The position numbers and the translations under genes are program-made. Below are positions 7,023 to 16,851 of a stretch of 64,000 bases of DNA, one piece after another. The notes beneath the pieces are model-generated. The model saw only the letters and a program-made list of their open reading frames with translations. It was not told the DNA's origin and searched no databases. This stretch comes from Helicobacteraceae bacterium. Its GTDB lineage: Bacteria; Campylobacterota; Campylobacteria; Campylobacterales; Sulfurimonadaceae. How positions within the stretch are numbered: position 1 is the first letter of the stretch; each line of letters opens with the position of its first letter. Location: contig JAMOSG010000039.1 of assembly GCA_027063225.1 (NCBI GenBank), positions 62,001 through 126,000 of the forward strand. Direction: 5' to 3'.

Positions 7023-7316
7023 ATGCAGAGGTTAAATAAAGAGATTATTTTAAATTACTTACAAGAACATAAAAAAGAGTTTATGTTGAAGTATAACCTT
7101 AAGAAGATAGGTCTTTTTGGAAGTTATGCAAAAGATTGTGCTTCTTATGATAGTGATATAGATATACTTGTAGATATGCCTCCATCTTTTAAAAATTATT
7201 ATGAATTAAAGCACACGTTAGAGGAGTATTTTCATAAAAAAGTTGATTTAGGTTTAGATAATACTTTAAGAAGTTTTGTAAAAAAAAGAGTTCAAAAGGA
7301 AATTATCTATGTCTAA
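7023..7316 (+). CDS. mntA: MntA-type nucleotidyltransferase antitoxin (type VII toxin-antitoxin)
   Basis: MNT motif LFGSYAKDCASYDSDIDILVD (GSx10DxD); overlaps hepT by 8 nt. Confidence 0.8.
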   Translation: MQRLNKEIILNYLQEHKKEFMLKYNLKKIGLFGSYAKDCASYDSDIDILVDMPPSFKNYYELKHTLEEYFHKKVDLGLDNTLRSFVKKRVQKEIIYV

Positions 7317-7743
7317 AAGGGATGTTGAACTTTATATAGTGGATATTTTAATAGCTATTAATAAAATTGAACGTTACTCTAAAAAATTTACAAATGCTCA
7401 AGAGTTACTTTATAGTGAACTTGAATGGGACGCTGTTATAAGGGAATTAGAAATTGTTGGAGAAGCGACAAATAGTCTTTTAAAACTTAATTTTTTAAAT
7501 CAAGAGTATAGAGTTATTGTTGATTTTAGAAACCAAATAAACCATGGTTATTTTGGTATTGATGAAAATATAGTTTGGGAAGTAATTACGAGTTATTTAA
7601 AAGAGTTTCGTATGGCATTATTTGATATCATTAAAGAAAATAATATCTCTTTAAATGAAGCAATAGAATCCGCAAAAGAGGATAATAGTTTTAATCAAAA
7701 TATATTACACTTTTTAGATTCTCTAAGTAATGAGTTTAATTGA
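7309..7743 (+). CDS. hepT: HepT-like HEPN ribonuclease toxin
   Basis: HEPN motif RNQINHGYFGID (Rx4H..Y); partnered with the MNT gene. Confidence 0.8.
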   Translation: MSKRDVELYIVDILIAINKIERYSKKFTNAQELLYSELEWDAVIRELEIVGEATNSLLKLNFLNQEYRVIVDFRNQINHGYFGIDENIVWEVITSYLKEFRMALFDIIKENNISLNEAIESAKEDNSFNQNILHFLDSLSNEFN

Positions 7744-7757
7744 ACTAAAGGATAAAA

Positions 7758-8933
7758 ATGAACATAGTAGAGTTAGATAAGAAATATGTTTTACCAACTT
7801 ATGCAAGAGTTGAAGTTGAGTTTGTCAAAGCAAATAATGCGACACTTTTTGATAGTAATGGTAAAAAGTATATAGATTTTACATCAGGTATTGGGGTTGT
7901 GAGTGTTGGGCATGCAAACAAGCGTGTAAATGATGCAATTTGTAATCAAATCAATAATATTACACACATTTCAAACCTTTACTACATTGCACCACAAGCA
8001 AAAGCAGCACAAAAAGTTGTAGAGGCTAGTGGGTATGATATGCAATGTTTCTTTGCAAATAGTGGTGCTGAGGCAAATGAGGGTGCGATTAAAATTGCAC
8101 GTAAACATGGTGAGCGTGATGGTGAGATAAAACGTTATAAAATTATTACGTTAAAGCATTCATTTCATGGTAGAACAATTACAACTGTAAAAGCAACAGG
8201 GCAAGAGGCGATGCATAATTATTTTGGACCATTTCCAGATGGTTTTGTCTATGCACAAAATATTGAAAGCATAGCAGATATGTTAGATGACCATACAGCT
8301 GGAGTTATGATAGAGCTTATTCAAGGTGAGGGTGGAGTTGAACCACAAGATAAGCAAAAAGTTCAAGCTTTAGCAAAACTTTTAAAAGAAAAAAAGATCC
8401 CTTTAATTGTAGATGAAGTGCAAACAGGAGCTTATAGAGTAGGAGAGTTTAGCGCTTCACAAGCTTATGGAATTGAGCCAGAGATTATTACACTTGCAAA
8501 AGGTGTTGGTGGTGGTGTACCTGTTGGTATTGTTATGACATCACTCAAAGGTGTTTTGAGTGCTGGAGATCATGGTTCAACATTTGGTGGAAACTATTTA
8601 AGTGCAACAGCTGTTTGTGAGGTTGTAGATATTTTACAAGAGTATAAACAAAGTGGAGCTTTAGATGAAACAATAGAGTATTTCGATAAAAAACTCCAAG
8701 AGTATTTCAAGCAAAATAAAGAGCTTTATACAGAGTGTGTTGGTTTTGGACTTATGCGTGGACTTCGTGTAAAAGATGGCGATACATTAACAAACATTAT
8801 AAACTCTGCAAGGGAAAATGGAGTTATGCTTTTAAAAGCTGGACGTAATACATTAAGATTTTTACCACCACTTACAATTACAAAAGAGGAAATAGATGAA
8901 GGTTTTGAAGCACTTAAGCATATTTCTTTGTAG
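7758..8933 (+). CDS. argD: Acetylornithine aminotransferase
   Basis: Class III aminotransferase: FANSGAEANEGAIKIARKHG, IVDEVQTGAYRVGEFSASQAYGIEPEIITLAKGVGGGVPVG. Confidence 0.85.
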   Translation: MNIVELDKKYVLPTYARVEVEFVKANNATLFDSNGKKYIDFTSGIGVVSVGHANKRVNDAICNQINNITHISNLYYIAPQAKAAQKVVEASGYDMQCFFANSGAEANEGAIKIARKHGERDGEIKRYKIITLKHSFHGRTITTVKATGQEAMHNYFGPFPDGFVYAQNIESIADMLDDHTAGVMIELIQGEGGVEPQDKQKVQALAKLLKEKKIPLIVDEVQTGAYRVGEFSASQAYGIEPEIITLAKGVGGGVPVGIVMTSLKGVLSAGDHGSTFGGNYLSATAVCEVVDILQEYKQSGALDETIEYFDKKLQEYFKQNKELYTECVGFGLMRGLRVKDGDTLTNIINSARENGVMLLKAGRNTLRFLPPLTITKEEIDEGFEALKHISL

Positions 8934-10083
8934 TTCACTTCTTGTTGCATCATCGCAAGAGTATCTTTTAGATACAAAGCTTCAAGAATTTGAATACGAT
9001 TATGAAAAAAATAAGGCACAAAGTAATTTACTAAAAAACTCTTGGATAGCTCCTATTATGCTTAATTACTCTTACACTAGAAGCAATGCTACTTCTAGTG
9101 ATGAGTCTTCTCAAGCTGCTTCTGTATCTATTACGCAACCTATTTTTCAAACGGGTGGGATTGTTTATGGTATAAAGTATGCAAAAGCTCTTAAAGAGTT
9201 TGGAAACTATACAATTGATCTACAAAAAACACAAATGAAAAAATCTGTTTTAGAGTTACTTATAAAGCTTAAACAGATAGATTTAAAACTACAAAAGCAA
9301 GAACTTTTAATTCAAAATGCACAACTTGATTTAGATGCAAAACAATCACGTTACTTAAATGGGGAGATAGATTCAGGATTTTTAGATAATGCTATTATTA
9401 AACTAAACTCTATGACTTTGGTACGGTATGATTTAGAAACAGCTAAACAAAATCTTCTCTCTAGCCTTAAAACACTCTCTAAGATAGACTATAAAACATT
9501 TCCTTTGCCAAGGCTAAAACTTTTAACAAAAGAGGAGTTTTTTCAGCAAAATATTTTGTTAAAAATGCAAAAAGCGAAGGTGAAAAGTAGTAGTTATCAA
9601 AAAGATATGATAGTAGCAAAATATTTACCTCAAGTTGCTTTAATAGGTAGTTATAATTGGAGTAAAATACCAGCACCAATAGGTGGTAAAATAGAACAAG
9701 ATTATTATAATTATGGAGTATCTGTAACACTTCCTTTAAATGTTAATAGTTTTGATGATATGGAAGCACAACGAGTTCAACAGTTTAAAGAGAAGCTTCT
9801 TTTAGAAGATAATAAAAGGGAACTACAAGCACTTTATGAAAGAGTAGAGCATAACTTGCAAAATCTTAAAAATAAAGAGCAACTTTCTCTTCAAAGTGTA
9901 GCAATTTATAAGAAACTTTTAAAAGATACAACAGTGTTATTTCAAAGTGGATATAAAACTGCTGCTGATGTCTTGATGCTACAAAATTCTTTAACAACAG
10001 CAAAGATAGATAAAGAGATTTTAGAATTAGATAGAGATATTGAGTTATTAAATTTATATGAGATGGTAGAAGATGAGATTTAA
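8896..10083 (+). CDS. TolC-family outer membrane protein
   Basis: Signal-like N-terminus, two-repeat coiled-coil OEP pattern (QAASVSITQPIFQTGGIVYGIKYAKA ... YNYGVSVTLPLNVNSFDDMEAQRVQQFKEKLL). Confidence 0.7.
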   Translation: MKVLKHLSIFLCSSLLVASSQEYLLDTKLQEFEYDYEKNKAQSNLLKNSWIAPIMLNYSYTRSNATSSDESSQAASVSITQPIFQTGGIVYGIKYAKALKEFGNYTIDLQKTQMKKSVLELLIKLKQIDLKLQKQELLIQNAQLDLDAKQSRYLNGEIDSGFLDNAIIKLNSMTLVRYDLETAKQNLLSSLKTLSKIDYKTFPLPRLKLLTKEEFFQQNILLKMQKAKVKSSSYQKDMIVAKYLPQVALIGSYNWSKIPAPIGGKIEQDYYNYGVSVTLPLNVNSFDDMEAQRVQQFKEKLLLEDNKRELQALYERVEHNLQNLKNKEQLSLQSVAIYKKLLKDTTVLFQSGYKTAADVLMLQNSLTTAKIDKEILELDRDIELLNLYEMVEDEI

Positions 10084-11142: not shown

Positions 11143-12855
11143 CTAAGGTTTAGAGATAGAAACTGCTTTTCTTTCGTGGAAGTGGAAGTGATCTTCAAGA
11201 TCAAGCATACTTAAAAGTACAGGAACAACTAAAAGTGAAGCAATAACTGCCGCAACTGTTCCAAAAATAAGTGCAACCCCTAGACCACCAAATACGGCAT
11301 CTCCAGCTAGTAGAGTTGAAGCTAGAATAATAGCAACTGCTGTAAGGAAAATAGGTTTCGCACGAGTTGCAGATGAATATGCAATTGCTTCGAATTGGTT
11401 AAGACCTTTTTCTTGCATTAACTGTTTTGTAAAGTCAATAAGAAGTAATGAATTACGAGAACTAATACCAATAAGTGCAATAAATCCAATTAGTGATGTT
11501 GCAGTTAAGAAGAATGTATCACGAGTGAAAACATCCATAATCCAGTGACCTACAATTACTCCAATAATAGAAAGGAATGAACCAAGTAAAATAATACCAC
11601 TAAGTGCAAAGCTTTTATAGTAAATAACCATGAGTAAAAAGATAAGAATAAGTGCAGCAATAAATGCACCACCAAGTTCAATAAAAGTATCGATTGTTAC
11701 TTTCATCTCACCATCCCATACTAAGTCATAAGATAAAAGAGTTCTCTTATCTGTAAGACGAAGATTAAACATGTCAGTTGTTTCAACTTTGTAGTCATCT
11801 GAAAGTGTATCTATAATCATCTCTCTAGCATCAAGAAGTGGATATACTTGAGAAACCATATCTGTCATTGCAAGTACATTTGTCATTTGGCGTAAATTTT
11901 TACTCAAAATTTTAGGATGAGATTTACCAGGAATAATACGAACAAGTTCTGTAACTGGTGTCATCATACCACGACGATTCATTAGTTTTAGAGATGTTAA
12001 TTTACTTTTAACAGAAGCTAAATCTTTTCTTGTAAAAGCTTTAGATTTTGGGCTTAATGTTAAGAAAATTGGAATTTGATCATTATATTTTTCAGAGTTT
12101 TTAACAGTGATTTCCATACCTTTGAAAGCAAGATATAAAATATTGTTAAGTTGTTTAATATCAACACCACTTCTTGAAACTTTAGAGCTATCTACAATTA
12201 TTTCAAAAGTATCATAAATCTCATCTTCCATTGTATCGATATCTACAAGACCATCTGTATGTTCAAAGATCTTTTTCACTTTATTTGCAACTGTTCTAAT
12301 TCCATTAGCATCGCTACCATACACTTCTAAAACAATATCTGAAAGTGTTGGAGGACCAGCAGGTGGTTCAACAAATGAAATTACAGTATCTTTATAAATA
12401 TTTTCACACTCTTGTTGAATCTCTGGACGAATTCTTTGTACCATTAAAAATGATGGTTCATGTCTATGGTGTTTAGGTGTAATATTTACAACAATTTCTG
12501 CAACATTTTCAGAATTCTTAAATGCAGAACCTTTAATAAGACCAGCAAAATCAAGAGGGGATCCCATTCCTAAAAATGTTTCAATATTTAAAACATCATG
12601 CTCTTGTTTTAAGTGGTTTACTACACAATCTGTTACCTCTTTTGTTTGATGGATGGAACTACCATTTGCTAGTGTAATATATACATTAAATGTATCATTA
12701 TCTTTACCAGGAAGCATTTTCGCAAGAACTAATTTAGTTGGTGCAATCATAAGTACAGATAAAATAAAAGCAACAAGCGTCATAACTAAAATAATACGAC
12801 GCTCAAGTGGATTTTGTATAATCTCTAAGAGAATTTTTTCAAATTTATCATACAT
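11143..12855 (-). CDS. RND efflux permease, C-terminal half (TM7-TM12)
   Basis: NPLERRIILVMTLVAFILSVLM (TM7), periplasmic porter region, then LILIFLLMVIYYKSF...LIGFIALIGISSRNSLLLIDF...RAKPIFLTAVAIILAST; start overlaps the stop of the N-terminal half (TAATG). Confidence 0.85.
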   Translation of the reverse strand: MYDKFEKILLEIIQNPLERRIILVMTLVAFILSVLMIAPTKLVLAKMLPGKDNDTFNVYITLANGSSIHQTKEVTDCVVNHLKQEHDVLNIETFLGMGSPLDFAGLIKGSAFKNSENVAEIVVNITPKHHRHEPSFLMVQRIRPEIQQECENIYKDTVISFVEPPAGPPTLSDIVLEVYGSDANGIRTVANKVKKIFEHTDGLVDIDTMEDEIYDTFEIIVDSSKVSRSGVDIKQLNNILYLAFKGMEITVKNSEKYNDQIPIFLTLSPKSKAFTRKDLASVKSKLTSLKLMNRRGMMTPVTELVRIIPGKSHPKILSKNLRQMTNVLAMTDMVSQVYPLLDAREMIIDTLSDDYKVETTDMFNLRLTDKRTLLSYDLVWDGEMKVTIDTFIELGGAFIAALILIFLLMVIYYKSFALSGIILLGSFLSIIGVIVGHWIMDVFTRDTFFLTATSLIGFIALIGISSRNSLLLIDFTKQLMQEKGLNQFEAIAYSSATRAKPIFLTAVAIILASTLLAGDAVFGGLGVALIFGTVAAVIASLLVVPVLLSMLDLEDHFHFHERKAVSISKP

Positions 12856-14459
12856 TAGTGATGATCTCCTTCAGGTCTTTTTAACATTCTTACTGCCATA
12901 TAAGGTGTAAAAATATAAGCAACAAAAAGTGAAGCAATAAGTGCTACAGGAACATTTTGTGGAATAGGCTTCATAAATTGACCCATCATACCACCAACAA
13001 AGTACATTGGAACCATCGTCATAATAATAGCAAGAGTTGCAATGTTTGTGGCAGAACCAATCTCATCTGTTGCTTCAATCATTAACTCATCCATATCTTT
13101 ATGAGCGGAATCTGGTGAGTGTAAATGTCTGTGAATATTTTCAATAACGATAATAGCAGCATCAACTAAGAGTCCAAGTGAAAGTAGGAATGCAAAGAGT
13201 GTAATCCTATTGATTGTTTGCCCTCCAAGATAAGCTACAAAAAGAGTTACTGAAAGAATCATAGGTACTGTAATTGTTACAATAACAGATTCTCTCCAAC
13301 CAAGTACAAAAATAAGAAGTATAGCAATAATTACAATTGATAATACAAGGTGATATACTAGTTCATTTACAGCTTCATCTGCACGTGTACCATCATTTCT
13401 TGTAATTACATAACTAATACCATTTTGTGCTAAATAATCTTTGTAAAGTTCAAGTTCTTCAATTACGGCATCTGAAATAATTACAGCATTTGTACCTTGA
13501 AGTTTTGAAATAGTTAATGTAACTTGAGGAATTTGAGGAGAGAAAGTACCATCCCTACGAGATACATTAATATAACTAGATTTGAAATTTTGAATATCCA
13601 TACCTTTAGTTACTTTAGCAACTTGGTAAAGATAAATTGGTGAACCCATATATTGAGCTACAATAATATTTTTAATATCATCTTCAGTGTCAATTGCATT
13701 TTTTACTGTTAAAATAGCAATTTTATTATCTTTTGTTTGGTTTTTAATAGCTGGTGCATTATATGCTAATGCTTCAACAGCTTGTTTAATTTGACCAAGT
13801 GAAAGGTTATAACCTGAGAGTTTATTGATATCGACTTCAATATTAAACTGAGTTTTATGCCCACCTTTAATGTCTGTTACCGCAACATTTGGAAGAGAGT
13901 TAATATGGTGTTGAATCTCTTTTACTGCATTGTAAAGTGTAGTTTGATCTAACTCTTTATCATTTGAATAAAATGCAATTGTTACAATTGGAATATCAAT
14001 ATCGATATCAAGAGGTTTGATCATAGGGTTTAATGTACCTTTTGGGAACATATCTGAGTTTTGCATAATTTTATCATAAACTTTAAGGTTTGAATCTGCT
14101 TTTGTTTCACCAATAAAAAATGATGCAACAACAATCCCAACATTATCCATAGCTGTACCATAAATATGCTCAACCCCTTTAACCTCTTTCATTTTACGCT
14201 CAAGTGGTTTTACAATAACTTTTTCAATCTCTTCTGCAGTAGCACCAGGAAGCACAACAATAACATTTGATCCACTAACAACCATTTGAGGGTTCTCTTC
14301 ACGAGGCATAATTTCAAGTGCTAAATAACCCATAATAATTAAAAAGACACCTAAAACAGCTGTTAAAGGGTTTCTAATAAACCCTTTTGCAAGCTTTCCT
14401 GCAACGTCTGTAACCTCATACGGTTTATGTTTGTTACGTTTTGTTTGATGAATAGCCAT
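12855..14459 (-). CDS. RND efflux permease, N-terminal half (TM1-TM6)
   Basis: NPLTAVLGVFLIIMGYLALEIMPREENPQ, LPGATAEEIEKVIVKPLE, TM4 LGLLVDAAIIVIENIHRHL; ends RMLKRPEGDHH. Confidence 0.85.
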   Translation of the reverse strand: MAIHQTKRNKHKPYEVTDVAGKLAKGFIRNPLTAVLGVFLIIMGYLALEIMPREENPQMVVSGSNVIVVLPGATAEEIEKVIVKPLERKMKEVKGVEHIYGTAMDNVGIVVASFFIGETKADSNLKVYDKIMQNSDMFPKGTLNPMIKPLDIDIDIPIVTIAFYSNDKELDQTTLYNAVKEIQHHINSLPNVAVTDIKGGHKTQFNIEVDINKLSGYNLSLGQIKQAVEALAYNAPAIKNQTKDNKIAILTVKNAIDTEDDIKNIIVAQYMGSPIYLYQVAKVTKGMDIQNFKSSYINVSRRDGTFSPQIPQVTLTISKLQGTNAVIISDAVIEELELYKDYLAQNGISYVITRNDGTRADEAVNELVYHLVLSIVIIAILLIFVLGWRESVIVTITVPMILSVTLFVAYLGGQTINRITLFAFLLSLGLLVDAAIIVIENIHRHLHSPDSAHKDMDELMIEATDEIGSATNIATLAIIMTMVPMYFVGGMMGQFMKPIPQNVPVALIASLFVAYIFTPYMAVRMLKRPEGDHH

Positions 14460-14470
14460 ATTTCTTAACC

Positions 14471-15223
14471 TTAGTCAATTTCTACTGTAGCATACATACC
14501 AGGATAAACTGATCTATTTCTTGTTTTAAAAGAAACTTTAATTTTAAATGTATGTGTCATAGGGTTAGAATTAGGGATAATCGCTGTTACACGCCCAATT
14601 GTCGTAATATTTAAGGATGGAATTTTAACAGTTACTTTTTTCCCATGTTTAATACGTGGTAAGTCACTCTCTGCAATCTCTGCAGAAACTTTTAAATTAC
14701 TTAAATCTGAAAGAACAATAGCTGGCATACCAGGCATTGCCATCTCACCCACTTTGATATTTTTTTGTACAACAACACCATCATTTGGTGCTTTTACATT
14801 AAGATATGCATATTGATTTTTAACTTCTCCTAGTCTTGCTTTAGAGATTTTAATCATATCTTCAAGGTTTTTAGCCGCAAGTTCAAGATTTTCAACTTCG
14901 TAACGTGAAACCATATCTTTTTTCAAAAGACGCTTATGACGCTCTAAGTTTCTCATAACATTTTGGTATTGGTTTTCATAAATTTGTAAGCCAGATTCAG
15001 CTTGACGTTTAGCAGAATCTATTTCACGTGAATCGATAGTGTAAAGAACTTGATTTTTTCTTACCTGTTCACCTTCAGAAACATTAACAGATGTAACAAA
15101 GCCCATAAAACGACTTGTAATCATTTTTTGATTATCTGAGATAATACTACCAGATAACACAATAGGTTCTGCCATTAAAGAGGCACCAATAAAAAGTAGT
15201 GACGATACTAACAGTTTTTTCAT
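14471..15223 (-). CDS. RND periplasmic adaptor (membrane fusion protein)
   Basis: SEGEQVRKNQVLYTIDSREID...YLNVKAPNDGVVVQKNIKVGEMAMPG; preferred ATG at 15223 preceded by GGAG (track starts at 15238). Confidence 0.85.
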   Translation of the reverse strand: MKKLLVSSLLFIGASLMAEPIVLSGSIISDNQKMITSRFMGFVTSVNVSEGEQVRKNQVLYTIDSREIDSAKRQAESGLQIYENQYQNVMRNLERHKRLLKKDMVSRYEVENLELAAKNLEDMIKISKARLGEVKNQYAYLNVKAPNDGVVVQKNIKVGEMAMPGMPAIVLSDLSNLKVSAEIAESDLPRIKHGKKVTVKIPSLNITTIGRVTAIIPNSNPMTHTFKIKVSFKTRNRSVYPGMYATVEID

Positions 15224-15224
15224 A

Positions 15225-16655
15225 TTATTTTTCTCCATTTGCTAATTTTTCAAGAGCAAAAACTCTCTCATTTCTTCTATTTTTAACTATCTGTAATTCA
15301 AGAATTTTTTGAATTTGTTCCGATTGTTTAATAATAACATCACTCATAGAAACAAGTTTTTCTCTATATCTTGCTTCGTAGTTATGATAAATTTCATTAG
15401 CAAGTGCTAACTCTTTTTCTAAAGAAACAATTTTTTCATCTTCAGATTTAATCTCTGTTTTAATCTTTGCTACCATAAGGCCAATACCTTTACGTGCAAG
15501 TTGAACTTGAGTTTGAGTTTTTAAAAGTTCAATTTTAGATTTCTCAATTGTTGCTTGATCAATACCACCATTATAAAGGTTCCATGTCATTCTAGCGCCA
15601 ATTGTGTATGAACCATCTTCGCCTGCTTGAGCCAAAGAATCTACAAAGTCATCATCAGCAGTTTGCCATTTTACAGACAGTCCAACCATTGGATAGTTTT
15701 CTGCTTTTGCAACATTAAGCATTCCACGTCTAACTTTTAAACCAGTTTCTGCACGTTTAATATCAACATTGTTTTCAATGATTGTTTTACCATTGATTCT
15801 AGGCATTGGAACGCTGCTATTAGTTGGAACAACAATACTTGTTACTTTTTGGTTTAATAAAAAACTTAGGTAATGATAAAGAAGACGTTCATTTAAGTGC
15901 ATATCCATAAGTAAACGTTCAACATTACCTTTTTTAGCACGAACTTCTAAAAGGTCAACTTTCTTTGCATATCCAACATCAATCATTGTTTTTGTTGTAT
16001 TTTCAAGTTTGCTGATGTTATCAAGAATAATATTTAAGTTTTTAATAGAACTCTTTAGTAAGGCCATATTATAAAAACTTTTTTTCAATTCATAGATTTT
16101 TTCGTTAATTGTTTTCTTTTTTTCTAAAGATTTCATACGACTCATGGCATTCATAATCTCTACATAACTAGAAATTTTGTAACCAGTAAAGATTGGTAAT
16201 TGCCATTCAATTTGTGTTTGATAGAACATTCTATCATCAGGATTATTGAGAGCATCATATTCTTTATCATTTTGTGCATCAACAGCTTGTTGTTCTTGAG
16301 GAGTATCAATTTGATTATTTCCATTACTTTGTGCTATTGCTGCTTGATCTCTTTGGTATTCAGCTAAACCAAAGTCTCTATAAGTAGCCTCACGAGAAGT
16401 TATTTTAAAACCAAAAACATTTCCAGCATCATTTGACATGGCAATATTTTGAGTTAAATCAATTTTACCGTAGTGGTTTCCAGATGCAGTTTTAACATCT
16501 TTTTTTGCTATTTTTTGATCAAGTTTTGCGATTTTAATCTCTAAGTTGTTAGATTTTAAAATCTCAATAGCTCTAGGCAAAGTTAAAGATGCACTTGCAA
16601 ATGCAACATTTGAAAAAATGGTCAATGCCACAAATGTGGCGAATCTTTTTTCCAT
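15225..16655 (-). CDS. TolC-family outer membrane efflux protein
   Basis: MEKRFATFVALTIFSNVAFA signal peptide; TIGARMTWNLYNGGIDQATIEKSKIELLKTQTQVQLARKGI; ATG 16655 preceded by AAAGG (track ORF starts at 16706 without support). Confidence 0.8.
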   Translation of the reverse strand: MEKRFATFVALTIFSNVAFASASLTLPRAIEILKSNNLEIKIAKLDQKIAKKDVKTASGNHYGKIDLTQNIAMSNDAGNVFGFKITSREATYRDFGLAEYQRDQAAIAQSNGNNQIDTPQEQQAVDAQNDKEYDALNNPDDRMFYQTQIEWQLPIFTGYKISSYVEIMNAMSRMKSLEKKKTINEKIYELKKSFYNMALLKSSIKNLNIILDNISKLENTTKTMIDVGYAKKVDLLEVRAKKGNVERLLMDMHLNERLLYHYLSFLLNQKVTSIVVPTNSSVPMPRINGKTIIENNVDIKRAETGLKVRRGMLNVAKAENYPMVGLSVKWQTADDDFVDSLAQAGEDGSYTIGARMTWNLYNGGIDQATIEKSKIELLKTQTQVQLARKGIGLMVAKIKTEIKSEDEKIVSLEKELALANEIYHNYEARYREKLVSMSDVIIKQSEQIQKILELQIVKNRRNERVFALEKLANGEK

Positions 16656-16851
16656 GTTTTTCCTTTTCTTGGATTTTTGAGATTTGAAATTTCCTGATTT
16701 TAACATAATAATTATGTGATTTTTATTAATCGTATAACATAAACAAAGTTTACTTTATTTTTTAGAGCATTTAAAGAAGAAATATAATCTCTTTTTAACA
16801 AAAAAAAAGATAAAATCGCAAGATAAATTTTTATATTAAAAGAGAAAAATA

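Follow-up and report, generated by a model that had tools for sequence, protein, structure and literature searches.

A naturally split RND efflux permease in Campylobacterales-type bacteria: two adjacent half-genes divided at the ancestral duplication boundary

RND permeases are normally single chains of about 1,000 aa, thought to be derived by internal duplication; in the DNA analysed here (the window, 64,000 nucleotides in all) such a permease is distributed over two open frames, and the question arises whether the interruption is a defect, a site of recoding, or the boundary between two genuine subunits of one pump. Four closely packed genes were located on the minus strand (11143–16706) in the order OMF-MFP-A-B; these genes and the sites within them are as follows.

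15225–16706, minus strand: TolC-like outer-membrane factor (OMF), first gene in the cluster; PF02321 OEP, TolC subfamily TIGR01844 below cut-off.
14471–15238, minus strand: short periplasmic adaptor (MFP), 255 aa; RND_mfp TIGR01730, 141 bits vs cut-off 94.9; best PDB matches TriA/TriB fusion 6vej_P and MexJ 20yy_D.
12855–14459, minus strand: RND half A, 534 aa, TM1–TM6 and first porter region, ending ...KRPEGDHH*; PF00873 positions 3–494, 264 bits.
11143–12855, minus strand: RND half B, 570 aa, TM7–TM12 and second porter region, starting MYDKFEK; PF00873 positions 527–1019, 139 bits.
12853–12857, minus strand: TAATG, the half-A stop overlapping the half-B start (TAA 12857–12855, ATG 12855–12853, one A common to both); read directly.
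12866–12871, minus strand: AAGGAG, Shine-Dalgarno-like, 10 nt 5' of the half-B ATG, within E-G-D codons of A; read directly.
13161–13163, minus strand: half-A Asp433 codon, equivalent to AcrB Asp407 (TM4 proton acceptor); Asp in 89/89 split loci and 46/46 fused relatives.
11455–11457, minus strand: half-B Arg467 codon, at the AcrB Lys940 position (TM10); Arg in 89/89 split loci and every aligned fused relative.
11341–11364, minus strand: half-B Arg498 to Thr505 codons, equivalents of AcrB Arg971 and Thr978 (TM11); Arg and Thr in 89/89 split loci.

The TAATG junction with its upstream AAGGAG, and the assignment of TM1–TM6 to the first frame and TM7–TM12 to the second, had been put forward in a preliminary description of the locus, and both were borne out. 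The two halves match different parts of ACR_tran (PF00873, model length 1021), so that each is one repeat; the limits of the two matches place the break in the TM6–TM7 cytoplasmic linker, where the ancestral repeats join, i.e., at the duplication boundary, as had been proposed. Alignment with AcrB and the fused orthologs gave the same position: A stops right after TM6 and B opens at the helix preceding TM7. Both RND repeats are present, each with six TM and a large periplasmic loop behind its first helix (TM1 or TM7), and the helices and strands seen in the models agree with this; in the window, as in 89 relatives, the repeats lie on separate frames, not on one polypeptide. Adaptor and TolC-like partner genes lie alongside in the window, as in a tripartite pump; the adaptor and OMF genes share 14 nt. 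The further RND permeases of this genome that were examined each have a single frame (ca. 1,022 and 1,042 aa), and the split is therefore specific to the present subfamily.

Distribution of the split: a half-A ortholog was found in 137/151 sampled genomes of the window's family (E up to 1e-60) and in 175/249 genomes of its order (E up to 1e-50); the split occurs in about 14 family-level groups of the order, the half-A frames of which are mostly 519–560 aa long. Neighbourhoods were inspected for 60 of the ortholog loci and for 80 loci from named genomes. B lies directly downstream of A wherever the sequence of a split locus extends far enough, and A without B was seen only at contig ends; adaptor and OMF genes lie upstream in 67/92 split loci. 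Isolates carrying the split include Malaciobacter halophilus DSM 18005 and, on its complete chromosome, Sulfurospirillum cavolei UCH003; plasmids bear the split pumps of Sulfurovum mangrovi and Sulfuricurvum kujiense DSM 16994. The pump of the latter adjoins TetR and MarR regulators, and its adaptor and OMF genes are nearby on the opposite strand. The pump seems to be absent from two family-level groups of the order (f11 and f14), where many near-complete genomes gave no subfamily ortholog, only full-length RND permeases of ca. 25% identity. Frames of 806–828 aa that resembled fusions in three genomes proved on inspection to end A at its usual stop, with B as a frame of its own.

The most trivial explanation would be an error of sequencing or assembly, or a single-chain permease recently turned into a pseudogene by a frameshift, and the window's own assembly is incomplete and fragmented (76.7% complete, 39 contigs); however, the same break recurs in many dozens of independent genomes, among them complete sequences (an isolate chromosome and plasmids), and its position is conserved while stop codons and offsets vary. 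Both halves are under purifying selection: dN/dS for close pairs was 0.02–0.20, far under 1 and similar to the values of fused relatives. Error or decay is thus excluded for the split clade by conservation and dN/dS, and is hardly conceivable for the locus in question. The preliminary description, which had preferred a conserved, coupled arrangement to random decay, had taken an uninterrupted frame in close relatives as the sign of an error; none was found, the fused orthologs having at most 41–48% identity in half A and lying outside the split clade.

Structure of the junction (91 distinct split junctions): B starts −11 to +16 nt from the A stop in 91/91; the TAATG type (offset +2) is the commonest (37), and 17 are of the ATGA type; B starts with ATG (81), GTG (7) or TTG (3), and A ends with TAA (50), TGA (30) or TAG (11). 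Overlap or near-overlap is conserved far beyond chance. The predominance of one relative frame of B (63/91) might be taken for programmed frameshifting or stop readthrough joining the frames into one polypeptide, the more so as a −1 shift within the overlap is enough for this; the bias is, however, due to the TAATG and ATGA overlaps themselves, 28 loci fall in the other two frame relations (16 and 12), some B starts follow a gap, and B is equipped with a start codon and a Shine-Dalgarno (SD) sequence of its own. With three relative frames, three stop codons and gapped starts no common recoding event fits; recoding was rejected on these grounds and is considered very improbable.

An SD core was present within 20 nt 5' of B in 73/91 loci vs 11% at random half-A positions; mean anti-SD duplex energy 5' of B was −7.9 kcal/mol vs −3.5 at random sites in A. 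After synonymous recoding of the A tail the mean was −6.5 kcal/mol (Wilcoxon p ≈ 3e-8, too strong a value since the loci are related). The window's own SD is no better than its synonymous recodings (−10.2 vs −12.5), so that selection on the SD is visible only across loci, themselves non-independent. From the stop-start overlap and the SD, re-initiation and near-equal synthesis of A and B are predicted.

Origin of the split: fused relatives, one frame each, comprised 11 loci of deeper Campylobacterota (42–49% identity in half A) and 35 of Pseudomonadota, Nitrospirota, Thermodesulfobacteriota and others; nearly all of the fused frames are 1,016–1,240 aa long. In the main tree (LG+G4 on the concatenated A and B of 139 sequences) all 89 split loci fell into one clade (SH-aLRT 100), i.e., the split has a single origin in this sample, and the fused loci were paraphyletic around it; a smaller mixture-model tree gave the same split clade with support 99. 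Since fused loci lie on both sides of the split clade, the fused form is ancestral; the exact root is less sure because of long outgroup branches, and the nesting of split within fused is independent of AcrB and CusA. Later pump duplicates and sampled paralogs within the clade are all split. The simplest history would be one ancient fission, unreversed in the sample. Divergences of A and B correlate (r = 0.94), which is expected from linkage alone too.

Distribution of the proton relay over the two chains: the relay of AcrB consists of D407 and D408 (TM4), K940 (TM10), and R971 and T978 (TM11). The TM4 motif LLVDAAI, correctly described earlier as having a single Asp, has this Asp at the D407 position and Ala at D408; across the split loci the former is invariant and the latter mostly Ala, 18 members having Asp there. 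Half B has invariant Arg, Arg and Thr at the 940, 971 and 978 positions. The TM4 acid and its TM10/TM11 basic and Thr partners are thus all present, shared out over A and B.

That the halves are separate homo-oligomeric half-transporters with different jobs is suggested by the homology of the RND repeats and by SecD and SecF, which are stable half-size RND chains; against this, the TM4 Asp of A and the Arg/Thr partners of B are each invariant and neither chain has the whole relay, A without B is confined to contig ends, and the pair has one adaptor gene and one OMF gene. Independent half-transporters are accordingly considered improbable. Since the full relay is on neither chain, we infer one A and one B per protomer and three pairs per trimer, and a hetero-assembled A-B protomer is the best reading of the sequences. 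AlphaFold2 of half A alone gave a mean pLDDT of 81 and RND N-half matches (AcrD/AdeJ, TM-score 0.72 on query); half B alone (pLDDT 79) gave a poor domain arrangement (TM-score ca. 0.46), which fits a chain needing its partner and is no proof of it, as isolated models cannot show pairing.

Comparison with CusA: the preliminary description had likened TM4 to that of CusA, a heavy-metal RND permease. The likeness holds for the single Asp and does not extend to the rest of the protein, the TM10 Glu (E939), TM11 Lys (K984) and Met triad of CusA not being conserved. Clustered His residues on several A C-termini and B N-termini also speak for a split CusA-type heavy-metal (HME) pump; however, such tails are cytoplasmic and in the minority (at least 5 His around the junction in 18/89 split members), and the Asp at the second TM4 position in 18 split members departs from the CusA pattern. 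The NCBIfam CusA/CzcA model (TIGR00914) gave 138 bits for half A and 61 bits for half B vs a cut-off of 701, and half A reached 226 bits with a multidrug RND model; adaptor and B are nearest to TriABC/MexJK. A CusA-type metal pump was rejected on residues and family models, and is rated as unlikely; the substrate is more likely an amphiphilic or toxic organic compound than a metal, as far as sequence can indicate it. His-rich C-terminal tails of half A (such as KKPHxHHHxHHFQKE) were noted at seven junctions, and the half-B N-terminus MPHHHHKG at two, on the cytoplasmic side.

Comparison with other RND systems: the pump resembles MexJK/TriABC of Pseudomonas aeruginosa (HAE-1-type) more than CusA. 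Among solved proteins, half B is by profile closest to MexK and TriC and the adaptor to TriA/TriB and MexJ, and the alignment shows Arg at the TM10 position in MexK too; on the other hand, MexK and TriC each consist of one chain (1,022–1,031 aa), and TM4 of MexK reads VDDA in place of the single Asp. Half A is by profile nearer to CmeB, AdeJ and MdtB. HAE-1-type models were the best NCBIfam matches, with each half far under the full-length cut-off of 1250, as any half must be. The fused orthologs of the same subfamily (Campylobacterota, Pseudomonadota, Nitrospirota and others; 31–52% identity) usually have the same adaptor upstream and differ in being one frame with a linker of ca. 30 residues between TM6 and TM7. 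The present adaptor is unusually short (255 aa vs ca. 350 aa per adaptor in the matched MexJ and TriA/B chains) and may be without the membrane-proximal domain.

MdtB and MdtC of E. coli are two complete 12-TM permeases from a whole-gene duplication (PMC7015380); there, as proposed for A and B, the products of two adjacent genes form an RND trimer in the inner membrane, but from full-length permeases, whereas A (534 aa) and B (570 aa) each match a section of the model of their own. SecD and SecF belong to the RND superfamily at half the usual size; together, these chains of six TM each make up a 12-TM unit, and in some species they are fused as SecDF (PMC8277102). The logic of split and fused forms is the same as in the present pump; SecD/SecF is, however, an accessory factor of protein export without adaptor or TolC partner, unlike the present cluster, and only half A gave a marginal match (PF02355, 23 bits; SecF model 19.6 bits vs 160).

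Proposed assembly: in the ancestor of most free-living Campylobacterales-type bacteria a single-chain permease would have been cut once, at the TM6–TM7 cytoplasmic linker, the ancient duplication boundary, and the halves would since have been retained as adjacent, mostly overlapping genes in an OMF-MFP-A-B cluster. The ribosome would end A and re-initiate on B, helped by the overlap and the SD in the last codons of A, giving near 1:1 synthesis; A (TM1–6) and B (TM7–12) would come together in the membrane to make one RND protomer, and a trimer of A-B pairs with the short adaptor and the TolC-like channel would act as a proton-driven efflux pump. This course of events, from fission through re-initiation to the trimeric pump, is judged quite probable as a whole. 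The sampled split-clade paralogs being all split, partner exchange between A and B is conceivable in genomes with two or three split copies; such exchange, or other stoichiometries, would give combinatorial pumps impossible for a fused permease, which is a speculative idea with little probability at present.

On this history a duplication-fusion would have been reversed once and would have stayed so throughout much of a phylum, and the pump offers a system for asking whether two chains can build a 12-TM RND protomer and how the halves recognise each other. In open-access text (split or half-size RND permeases, nolGHI) no published description of a naturally, anciently split tripartite RND efflux permease was found, and the ancient split at the duplication boundary is apparently an undescribed form. 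In the records of Sulfuricurvum kujiense and Sulfurovum mangrovi either half bears just the label "efflux RND transporter permease subunit", and sequences of less than 852 aa were dropped from a major survey of these permeases (PMC10872679), so that such pumps are double-counted or dropped.

Other genes of the window: nucleotidyltransferase (PF01909) and HepT-like (PF01934) genes at 7023–7743 (plus strand) overlap and resemble a toxin-antitoxin pair of the MNT/HepT type. A second TolC-like OMF (PF02321) was found at 8896–10083 (plus strand) without an adjoining adaptor or pump gene; its 5' end overlaps an aminotransferase gene (7758–8933) by 38 nt.
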